Positions 53,161-57,581 of a stretch of 64,000 nucleotides of DNA are shown one piece after another (within the stretch, counting starts at the first letter, position 1; every line of letters starts with the position of its first letter). The translations under genes and the position numbers were made by a program. Source of the stretch: Caulobacter sp. 73W. Lineage in GTDB: Bacteria > Pseudomonadota > Alphaproteobacteria > Caulobacterales > Caulobacteraceae. The notes beneath the pieces were generated by a model, which was not told where the DNA came from, ran no database searches, and saw only the letters and a program-made list of their open reading frames with translations. Location: positions 1,922,001 to 1,986,000 of the forward strand of contig NZ_CP158375.1 in NCBI RefSeq assembly GCF_041021955.1, read 5' to 3'.

Positions 53161-56100
53161 ATGGGCTTTGTCACAAACGAGGATGAACTGCGCGATGCGA
53201 TCCGCGCCGCCAACGCCGGCGGCGATCATCAGATCATTTTCGATAGGGATATCACCCTCACCAAATCCCTGCCGATGATCACCGCCAACATGACCTTCGA
53301 GGGCCACAACCACAAGATCAGCGGCGCGGGCCTCTACCGCGCCTTCTTTATCCAAAACGGCCAGGTCAACATCTGGGACCTGACCATCAATGACGTCGCC
53401 GCCATCGGCGGCGACGGCGGTGACGCAAACGGGAGCCTTGGCGCGGGGGGCGGCGGCGGCCTGGGGGCCGGGGCGGCCATCTTCATTAACGATGGCGCCT
53501 ACGCCTATGTCAGGAATGTCCAGTTTGGCGACGCCTTCGCCCAGGGCGGTCGCGGCGGCCGCGGCGGGGAAAGCGGCATCGGCTCCGAAATCGGCGGCGG
53601 CGGCGGCGGCGGCGGCATGGGCGGCGATGGCGGTGTGGCCCTAAGCGGCGGCGGCGGCGGCGGCGGCGGTTATGCCGGTTCGGGCGGGAATGCGGCCTCT
53701 GGCAGCTCCGGCGGGGGGGGCGGCGGCGGTGAATTCGGCGCTGGCGGTGACGGCGCGGAACGGGGCGGCGGCGGCGGCGGCGGCGCGGAGGGGGCGGGCG
53801 GCGATGGAGGTGACACCGGCGGCGGCGGCGGCGGCGGGGCAGGCGCTTCCGATGCGGGCGCTCACGCCTCCCTGGGCGGGGCCGGGAAGAACGGCGGTGG
53901 CGACGGTGGCGTCCATGACCCAGGCGATCAGGAAAGAAACGGCGCTGCTGGGGACAACTTCGGCGGCGGCGGGGGCGGCGCTGTGGAGGGGGCAGGCGGC
54001 ATGGGCGGCCTCGGCGGCGGCGGGGGGGCGGCAGTGTCTCCGGCGGGGCCGGCGGGGCCGGCGGCGTGGGCGGCGGCGGCGGCGGCGGCGGGCGGAGCTC
54101 CGGCGACCCAACGGGGGGTAAGGGCGGCGACTTTGGCGGCGGCGGAGGCGCGGGCCTTGCGCCAGACGCGGTCGGCGGCGAGGGCGGTTTCGGCGGCGGC
54201 GGCGGCGGCGCCGTTACGCAGACCTCTGCCGCCAGTACCGGCGGCGCGGGCGGCTTCGGGGGCGGTGGGGGCGGCGGCAGCGTGGCCGGCGGCGCTGCGG
54301 GAGCCTTCGGCGGCGCCGGCGGGACCGGCCTGAGGGCCAGCGGCGGCGGGGGCGCCGCTTTGGGCGGCGCCATCTTCGTGGCCAAGGGCGGCGAGCTGAC
54401 GTTCTATGATCCCAAGTTCATTGGAAACTATGGCGTCACCGGCGGCGCCGCCGGAGTGGCCGGATCGGCGGCCGTGCAAGGCGGCGCCGGCCGGGCCCTG
54501 GGCGAGATCATGTTCCTTGATGGGGACACAACGCTCAACCTTACGGACGACGCGATAATCTCCCACGACGACGCCATCGCCGGCTCCGGGGAGCTTAGGA
54601 AGACGACCTCCCATACCCTGACGCTCGCGGGAGGGAATGCGAACTTCACCGGCAAGATGGTGGTGAGCGGAGGTGACTTGCGTCTTCAGAACGGCGGGGC
54701 CCTGGGCGACACGGCCGCGGGAACAGTCGTAACCTACGGATCAATCAGCCTGGAGGGCGGCATTAGCGTCCTCGGCGAAAAGCTCGAGCTCAGCGCCAAG
54801 CTGCAAAACATCTCCGGCGACAATCGTTGGGGCGGGGACATCCGTATTCATGAGGGTGAGTTCGTCAACGATGCTGGAACGCTGACGATCTCTGGCAAGA
54901 TTCTAGGCTCGGCCGAGATGTCCTCCCAGCTCGAAATCAAGGGCGCGGGCGCTACGCTCCTCACCGGCGAGATCGCCGATACGCGCATCACCAAGTGGGG
55001 GTCTGGGACCCTGACCTTGTCGGGGGCCAACACCGCTAGTCAGTGGACCGAGGTTTTCGAAGGCGTCTTGCGGGTCACTCACGCCAAAGCGCTGGGAACA
55101 GTCAGCTATGGAGTGAATGTTGGGACGGGCGCCGCGCTGGAGTTGTCCGGCGGCATCGCCATCGCCGGCCTAAGCCTTACTGTCGACGGCACAGGCGTCA
55201 CCAACGGCGGCGCCCTGCGTAATGTCTCTGGCGTCAACAGCTGGAGCGGCGCGCTCACGGTTTCGTCCCCGACATCAATCGCCGCCGACGCCGGATCGCT
55301 GACCTTGTCGGGCGAGATCAACGCCGACGCCAGTGATCTCACCTTCTCCGGAGCGGCGGACATCAGCGTTGCCGGGGAGATCAGCGGTTCAGGCAAGATC
55401 ACCAAAAGCGGCGCTGGAAGTCTGACCCTCGCGGCCGACAATGCTAGCTTCATTGGCGAGGTTCACGTCGCGGACGGGGTGCTGATCGTCGCCGACAGCG
55501 CTGCTCTGGGTGGAATAGCCCAAAAAACGTTTGTCCACGGCACGGGCACGCTGAGCCTGACGGGCGGCGTCCAGGTGGCCTCCGAAGCTTTGGATCTGTC
55601 CTACGGGGGCGTGCTGCGGAATATCTCCGGCGCCAACGCGTGGGGCGGCGACATCGAAGTAAAGGCCGCGGCGAACTACGCCACGGTCGAAAGCCTCTCT
55701 GGGACCTTGACGCTCGCCGGCACGATTTTTGGGGAGGCCTCGGCGCTCTTTGTCACCGGCGCTGGCGCCACGGTGATCAGCGGCGTCATCTCGGAGCTGG
55801 ATGGCGTCGACAAGCAGGGCGCAGGGAATCTTACCCTCTCCGGAGCCAACACCTTCGATGGGACCGTGGATGTCTCGGCGGGCGTGTTGCGCGTCGCTCA
55901 CGCCCAAGCGCTGGGGACCGTCGCGCAAGGAACCACCGTGTCCTCCGGCGCCGCCCTGGAGCTGTCCGGCGACGTCGCGGTGGCGGGTGAAGTCCTGACC
56001 ATCAGCGGCCTGGGCGTGTCCAACGGCGGCGCGTTGCGCAACGTCTCCGGGACCAACAGCTGGAGCGGCGCGCTCAACGCCTCAGGGGCCACATCGATCA

Positions 56101-57581
56101 CCGCCAGCGCCGGTTCGCTGACCCTGTCGGGCGCGTTCAATGCGGGCGCGAATGGCGTCCACTTCGGCGGGGCGGGCGCCATCACCGTTTCCGGCGCGAT
56201 CAGCGGCGCGGGCGGAGAATTCACCAAGACCGGGGCGGGCGTCCTGACCCTGAGCGGGGTCAACACCACTGCCGCGGACTTCGACGTTCTGGCCGGCAAG
56301 CTGGTGGTCGACGGCTCGATCGGGTCGCGGATCAGCGTCTCCGGCGGCGCGACCCTTGGCGGGACGGGAACCGTGGGCGACGTGACCGTCACCTCCGGAA
56401 CTCTCGCCGCCGGCAACTCGGCGGGCATACTGAGCACGGGCGACATCAATCTGACCTTCAGCTCCGCCTTGGCCGTGGAGATCGGCGGGACCACGGCGGG
56501 AATCGGCGGCTACGACCAGATCGACGTGACCGGCTTGGTGACCCTGGCCGGCGACTTGGACGTCAGCTTCCTTGGCGGCTTCTCGCCCACCAGCGGGACC
56601 TTCACGATCATCAACAACGATGGGACCGACGCAGTCAGCGGGACCTTCGACGGCCTGGCCGAAGGGGCCACCTTCGACATCGGAGCGACCCGGTTCACGA
56701 TCAGCTACGTCGGTGGCGTGGACAGCAACGACGTGGTCCTGACGGCTTCGACGGCGCCTGTCGTCGTCACGCCCCCGTCGCCAGAGCCCACGCAGCCCAC
56801 GCAGCCCACGCAACCGTCCATGACGCCGGAAGATATCCGTCAGGCTTTCACCGGCTCCAACGGCTTCAATCCTGGCGCGGCCAAGACGGCTCAGGCGACC
56901 ATCACCCTGCCGGACGGCCGGGTGGTGGAGAACCCCAACTACAAGGCCGCCGCCGCCCTCGAACAGCTTATCGTGCGCTTCACGGCCGGCCTGATTAACG
57001 AGGCCAATCTCGCCGATCAGGTGGCGGACCTGGCCGCCCCGACCTCGGCGGTCGCGCTTCAAGCCTATCAGTTCTTCACCGGCCGCACGCCGGGCAAGCC
57101 GGGCATGGCCTGGCTGGTGGACAGCCTCGACAACGCCAACGACCTGACAGACCCGTACTACGCCGGCTTCAACACCGCGAACCGCTACATCAATTTCGCG
57201 GTCAATCTGGGGGTGCAGGGCGAAGGACGCTCGGGGTTCGAGGCGGGCTACGGCGCCCTCGACTTCACCGCCGCCGTCCGCAAGGCCTATGACGCGATCA
57301 TCGGCCTGGACGAAGCCAAGGCCGCCGGCCTCGACGTGGACGCCGCCATCGCCTGGGTCGTCAGTCAGAAGGGATATTTCGACGCCCTGGGCGGGTCGGC
57401 CCTGGGCGGCAAGGCGGCCATGGTCGGCTACTTGATGTTCGCGGGTTTCGATGCGGACGTCGGTATCTATTCCGACGCGACGCACGACTGGCTGGTCGAC
57501 GCCTTCAACGGCCAAGCCGCCTACGGCGTGGATATGGTGGGGCAGGCCGGGATGTCGTTCGCGGACGACATCCCCGCTTGA
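53161..57581 (+). CDS. Giant glycine-rich autotransporter-repeat protein with C-terminal RsaA-N-like domain (frame break in a G7 run)
   Basis: The gene reads MGFVTNEDELRDAIRAAN from the ATG at 53161 to a stop at 54333 in one frame, and from about 54030 to 57581 in another. Changing the G7 run at 54022-54028 by one G unites them into about 1,473 residues. The parts are: a right-handed beta-helix start (residues 1-75); a Gly-rich region of about 325 residues; many passenger-type repeats (GSGTLTLSGANT, LRVTHAKALGTV, GGALRNVSGVNSWSGAL) to about residue 1190; a PTQ linker; and a C-terminal RsaA-N-like domain (YQFFTGRTPGKPG, NRYINFAVNLG, AYDAIIG). There is no signal peptide and no autotransporter barrel. 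A surface adhesin is likely. Its reading state depends on the G-run. Confidence 0.75.
53389..54360. repeat. GGC-rich low-complexity tract
   Basis: Nearly a kilobase of GGC/GGN codons with a period of three, encoding poly-Gly with scattered Ala, Ser and Asp, like PE-PGRS or glycine-rich adhesins. It holds several G runs of five to seven that favour slippage in replication, amplification and sequencing. It is not a CRISPR array. Confidence 0.85.

Follow-up and report, generated by a model that had tools for sequence, protein, structure and literature searches.

A predicted beta-helical passenger of the autotransporter kind with a C-terminal RsaA domain in Caulobacter sp. 73W

Described relatives of the protein

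The S-layer protein RsaA (PDB 6t72, 6z7p and 5n8p) is known to carry its RsaA_NTD domain at the N-terminus and its T1SS signal at the opposite end, the C-terminus (PMC8546985, in excerpt). Binding of the O-antigen by RsaA is stabilized by Ca2+, with a Ca2+ loop at residues 77-100 (PMC6978808, in excerpt). The SapA protein of Caulobacter has a C-terminal half that is similar to the N-terminus of RsaA, and its passenger is an RTX metalloprotease; the passages of PMC3034196 that deal with SapA describe no clear T1SS signal, yet present the protein as apparently secreted by a T1SS. A third group of relatives consists of the type Va autotransporters with PATR repeats, whose passengers end in a barrel.

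We describe here a gene at 53161-57581 of a 64,000-nucleotide stretch of the Caulobacter sp. 73W genome (the window). Our preferred reading, to which we give a probability of about three in four, is that a PATR beta-helix passenger of the type V kind has been joined to a C-terminal RsaA_NTD cassette and has moved to the type I/S-layer route, probably with export by an RsaDE-like T1SS and anchoring through O-antigen and Ca2+. The window protein shares a homologous domain with RsaA (31% identity in a Foldseek alignment) but carries it at the C-terminus. It resembles SapA in its tail, and the SapA model NF051884 matches it, but its passenger is a PATR beta-helix by prediction and not an RTX metalloprotease. 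With the type Va autotransporters it shares PATR/TIGR02601 repeats, a predicted beta-helix and homologous passengers in 12 genomes; it differs from them in having no barrel, no Sec signal visible by inspection and RsaA_NTD as its tail. There is also a likeness to the giant passenger-repeat proteins of the Verrucomicrobia type: in a similarity search of genome contigs, one distant locus from a Spartobacteria MAG (L023) matched query residues 182-750 at 30% identity, the C-terminus of the L023 protein lying outside the locus. The L023 contig holds an open frame of at least 6798 amino acids of passenger-like repeats, both ends of which are outside the locus.

A preliminary description of this DNA had considered the chimeric architecture to be undescribed. 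This view needs to be narrowed: a C-terminal RsaA domain has a precedent in SapA (PMC3034196, in excerpt), and it is the rule in this genome. What stands is that no report of RsaA_NTD on PATR passengers, or as a genome-wide exchangeable tail, was found among the listed open-licence papers.

Gene layout and passenger

All features of the gene lie on the plus strand. A pectate-lyase-like start in frame 1 (53161-53400) is recognized from a weak match to PF20585 (E 9.9e-4; 19.7 bits against a cut-off of 24.3) and from homology to the start of an intact paralog, and a purine-rich stretch resembling a ribosome site lies immediately 5' of 53161. A promoter/terminator scan gave no sigma-70-like site and 5 terminator-like sites (2.9 expected), and its outcome was set aside as evidence. 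The start is followed by a glycine-rich stretch (53401 to about 54420), identified by composition and three-frame translation, of which about half is glycine (50% and 47% in two samples). Next come the beta-helix passenger (54540-56740), comprising the PATR repeats and a stretch after the last repeat, and a Pro/Thr/Gln linker (56741-56820) with the sequence PTQPTQPTQ directly after the repeats. RsaA_NTD, the O-antigen/Ca2+-binding domain of the S-layer protein, occupies 57042-57545 (PF19198, PDB 6t72); the final 11 residues and the stop (57546-57581) contain nothing further in a Pfam scan.

The preliminary description spoke of a giant protein here, but the region is not one open frame. There are two overlapping ORFs in different frames, one of 390 amino acids (53161-54333), with the start and the beginning of the glycine-rich stretch, and one of 1171 residues (54066-57581). 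The two open frames overlap at 53919-54333, and three-frame translation places the frame change within this overlap, near 54.02-54.10 kb, in the glycine-rich DNA. An intact paralog, with a like start, glycine-rich stretch, PATR repeats, linker and RsaA_NTD in the same order, is present about 60 kb away (L030:9275-12835, minus strand; genome positions 1.911-1.915 Mb) as a single ORF of 1187 amino acids; hence, the upstream and downstream ORFs belong to one gene, and the window gene is not a one-off recombinant.

The window copy may be silent, phase-variable or mis-sequenced. We lean slightly toward a G-rich tract that varies by phase or was misread in sequencing, such that other cells, or the true sequence, would yield a functional protein. 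The change falls within G-rich, repetitive DNA, and the downstream frame is open both to the stop and back to 53919 (1220 amino acids when counted as an open frame), as would be expected under either of these possibilities; a real and fixed inactivation would, however, look alike in the sequence of one strain. Both possibilities are compatible with the preferred reading of a passenger joined to an RsaA_NTD cassette.

The claim that the protein contains repeats of the autotransporter passenger type is well supported. The ORF at 54066-57581 matches PATR (PF12951) in five stretches with an E value of 7.9e-22, and the NCBIfam autotransporter-repeat model TIGR02601 agrees (E 1.3e-23). At the DNA level, repeat detection gave a period of 408-414 nt, with four copies at 54985, 55396, 55804 and 56218. 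The passenger is modeled as a beta-helix, with block pLDDT values mostly of 70-90 for approximately ORF residues 210-780 and low values beyond; mean pLDDT for the large model is 59.9, and the beta-helix is supported over the passenger only. Foldseek produced no match to the model at E <= 0.001, the first-ranked entry being 6t72 (E 6e-3). A re-examination of Foldseek's own list with VIA-align placed two proteins at the top for the passenger, both with a Z of 16.8: pertactin (rmsd 5.9 over 385 aligned residues) and EtpA (rmsd 7.5 over 379). Other autotransporter passengers rank lower, but so do some solenoids that are not autotransporters and still score high, among them tapirin in third place (Z 14.2) and an antifreeze protein (Z 12.8). 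The protein thus has a PATR-repeat passenger with a predicted beta-helical fold, as in type Va autotransporters, followed by RsaA_NTD. The role of the passenger is probably in adhesion or cell-cell contact, a guess that we make from the kind of fold.

The barrel of these autotransporters (PF03797) is absent from the ORF, for which the Pfam scan gives RsaA_NTD and PATR only. Two PF03797 matches occur in the genome, both elsewhere. PATR matches (E <= 0.001) number 10 in this genome, and they are confined to three ORFs that end in RsaA_NTD. Matches to the window protein were found in 23 of 61 sampled genomes, 11 with RsaA_NTD and 12 others. These 12 comprise 9 of the genus, with no RsaA_NTD match, and 3 of the order, included in the passenger comparison only; in all 12, the passengers were picked out by their likeness to the window protein rather than by PF12951. 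Every one of the passenger-matching ORFs in the 12 genomes (17/17, paired by contig, position and ORF length) has the PF03797 barrel. Among the barrel-type matches that reach the end of the passenger, most stop between query residues 858 and 882, short of the linker of the window protein, and one extends to 932. This is consistent with the earlier proposal that the linker and an RsaA-N-like domain take the place of the barrel. The preliminary description had also held that barrel-ended homologs would mark this copy as a truncated recombinant; such homologs do exist, but truncation does not follow, since three genes carry PATR together with RsaA_NTD. Barrel proteins are present in all 10 of the RsaA_NTD genomes tested, so the barrel route as such has not been lost in these genomes. 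In nine of the other genomes with RsaA_NTD (all but the eleventh, G015), PF12951 had no match at E <= 0.001, a genome-wide search that is not sensitive because a single repeat has 30 positions. No whole-gene ortholog was seen in related species, and the members read from the two nearest genomes (G009 and G023) are 7 tails on other passengers.

The RsaA_NTD tail in the genome and the genus

RsaA_NTD was matched at residues 993-1160 of 1171 with an E value of 1.3e-48 (165.6 bits versus a cut-off of 27). The closest solved relative is the N-terminal domain of RsaA bound to LPS (PDB 6t72; E 1.1e-23, residues 941-1150), against which the motif LVDS..N.NDL.D.YY..F...NR.INF..NL is kept; a strict pattern for this stretch fits 20 of the 29 RsaA_NTD proteins of the genome. 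The Ca2+ loop region is largely kept in the alignment to 6t72. The NCBIfam model of the SapA protease matches in its C-terminal part (positions 431-635 of 644), with a score under the cut-off for the whole protein, as a match through a single common domain should be. The predicted structure of the tail is poor (mean pLDDT 49.2; Z 5.2 against 6t72 in VIA-align, over 79 residues only), and this counts against the preferred reading, as do the low-confidence end of the passenger, the lack of a Foldseek match at E <= 0.001 and the frame change in the gene as sequenced. In comparison with the paralog, the tail has a dN/dS of 0.09, the passenger one of 0.45 and the start one of 0.62; these values come from one pair and are blind to a later loss of function here. 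The low value points to strong purifying selection on the tail.

The 29 RsaA_NTD matches in the genome are C-terminal in 27 proteins and near the N-terminus in 2. Among the 27 C-terminal tails, 28 residues or fewer follow the matched part in 26, and 50 follow it in one. The heads recognized by Pfam on the 29 proteins include RTX, M10/serralysin proteases, FG-GAP, Ig-like, Calx-beta, cadherin with collar domains, beta-helix and PATR, and the remaining heads, without a Pfam match, are glycine-rich or short. Elsewhere in the genus, the domain is C-terminal at 22 of 27 loci (L095 being counted as C-terminal) and N-terminal at 5, the 27 loci being the best-scoring of 107 matches outside the window's genome; four of the five N-terminal cases have an end of the KLVGVTGLT type, and the remaining one extends beyond the edge of its locus. 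Of 37 genomes of the genus, 11 have RsaA_NTD; in a sample of 289 genomes of the class, the window's own is the single one with a match. Among control genomes, the RsaA family matched in Caulobacter vibrioides only.

Two FG-GAP passengers with C-terminal RsaA_NTD, identified by Pfam and DNA comparison, adjoin each other in the window on the minus strand (41682-43811 and 43888-45789). Their last 655 bp have 96.0% DNA identity. The first of them also has 94.5% identity to an RTX gene (L039) at a distance of about 560 kb, in the last 656 bp of both genes only. No match between the heads of either pair was present among those listed (over 150 bp, E up to 1e-10). From these comparisons, the RsaA_NTD tail appears to move as a cassette. 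Elsewhere in the window, 34643-39406 is occupied by a pair of very long ORFs that overlap, one of 1587 amino acids on the minus strand and one of 1526 on the plus strand; the plus-strand ORF has no Pfam match.

In a tree of 36 tails, the window gene and the 1.911-Mb paralog are sisters (100/98), and the third PATR gene, at 3.355 Mb, has a tail that groups with those of Ig-like proteins. A single clade of the three PATR tails was rejected (AU p 0.001), in a test that was run after the tree had been viewed and with the group defined by passenger. As the third tail groups apart and the joint clade is rejected, head and tail have been combined, or tails have been exchanged, more than once. A wider proposal is that this lineage uses RsaA_NTD as a self-sufficient, plug-in cassette for display, whose roughly 220 residues would hold both an export signal and an anchor to O-antigen. 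The cassette would recombine onto any passenger and would have captured type V passengers more than once, so that for PATR adhesins the S-layer route has replaced the barrel route. We offer this proposal tentatively, at somewhat less than an even chance.

The gene sits between lptC/lptB plus an alpha/beta hydrolase gene and rpoN. In G023 (RpoN 97% identical), rpoN follows lptB after about 110 bp, while in G009 (RpoN 95% identical) the hydrolase gene alone lies between them. The gene was seen at none of 29 loci of other genomes, within up to 1500 bases upstream of rpoN, and lptB was seen at 25 of the 29. Homology to G009 ends at 52816 and resumes at 57706, and homology to G023 ends at 51611 and resumes at 57703; hence, the block with the gene is extra here relative to both genomes, and a gain is a simpler reading than loss in the relatives. 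Positions 52821-52878, 3' of the hydrolase gene, match DNA of two relatives at 76-77%, inside lptB by position. It looks as if part of lptB was duplicated near the border of the insertion.

Export, anchoring and wider meaning

The proposed route begins with a gene without a barrel, in which inspection reveals no Sec signal. The unfolded chain would leave the cytosol in one step through an RsaD/RsaE-like T1SS, with a signal that may lie in or just after the C-terminal module. The passenger would then fold outside the cell into the predicted beta-helix. RsaA_NTD would bind the O-antigen of LPS with Ca2+ and keep the passenger at the surface of the cell, either beneath the S-layer or passing through it. 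Both export by a T1SS and O-antigen anchoring of the window protein are inferred from homology.

A matching ABC/HlyD exporter, as required for type I secretion, is encoded in the genome, and the window protein is a putative substrate. The PrtD-type ABC gene (1899142-1900761) scores 773 bits versus a cut-off of 510 and is the sole one over the curated cut-off; an adjoining HlyD scores 447 bits versus 208.65. Also beside the exporter are a GDP-mannose dehydratase and a polysaccharide-export-type ATPase (below cut-off), a neighborhood that resembles the rsa locus as described in the excerpted text of PMC3034196. The exporter genes are about 74 kb from the window gene, which counts against the preferred reading. 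A 694-amino-acid protein with an N-terminal RsaA_NTD is encoded about 5.5 kb from the exporter (L030:4259-6340; genome 1.906-1.908 Mb). It is possibly the S-layer protein; RsaA of C. crescentus is longer, at 1026 amino acids (PMC8828063, in excerpt).

It is less probable, indeed unlikely, that the C-terminal RsaA_NTD is an anchor only and that these proteins are exported by another route, such as Sec or a type V partner of a cryptic kind. RsaA_NTD is not followed by any known T1SS signal domain, the last residues (YGVDMVGQAG...) matching no known signal model in Pfam and NCBIfam scans, and the location of the RsaA signal at the other end of that protein also counts against T1SS export here. 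However, inspection of the window gene and the intact paralog reveals no Sec-like start, the ORF lacks a barrel, and SapA, with the same tail, appears T1SS-dependent in the available text of PMC3034196. The start of the window protein (MGFVTNEDELRDAIRAANAGG) has no hydrophobic core by inspection; its best 12-residue hydropathy is 0.99, versus 2.25 in one RsaA_NTD member (908038), by a crude measure used without a control. Cdz glycine-zipper proteins were considered as a link for the glycine-rich members and dropped, as Cdz proteins have 60-151 residues and an N-terminal leader (PMC5380434, in excerpt). Least probable is a truncated, dead autotransporter gene whose repeats were fused to an S-layer gene by local recombination or an assembly error: the frame change, the barrel-ended homologs elsewhere and the lack of the gene at this site in both of the nearest relatives would fit, but we reject it because the genome has two more PATR-RsaA_NTD genes, one of them full-length and intact, and it is further disfavored by the purifying selection on the tail and by the restriction of the genome's PATR matches to RsaA_NTD genes.

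In summary, our preferred reading of a type V passenger moved to the type I/S-layer route suggests that passengers can cross between the type V and type I routes, which are usually treated as separate. The 29 copies in one genome and the swapping of tails at the DNA level suggest that an S-layer anchor domain serves as a general display tag; if the tail also holds the export signal, it would be a compact natural tag for surface display. A comparison of dozens of natural tails would also open to test a long-standing question, namely how SapA leaves the cell although it has no visible T1SS signal.
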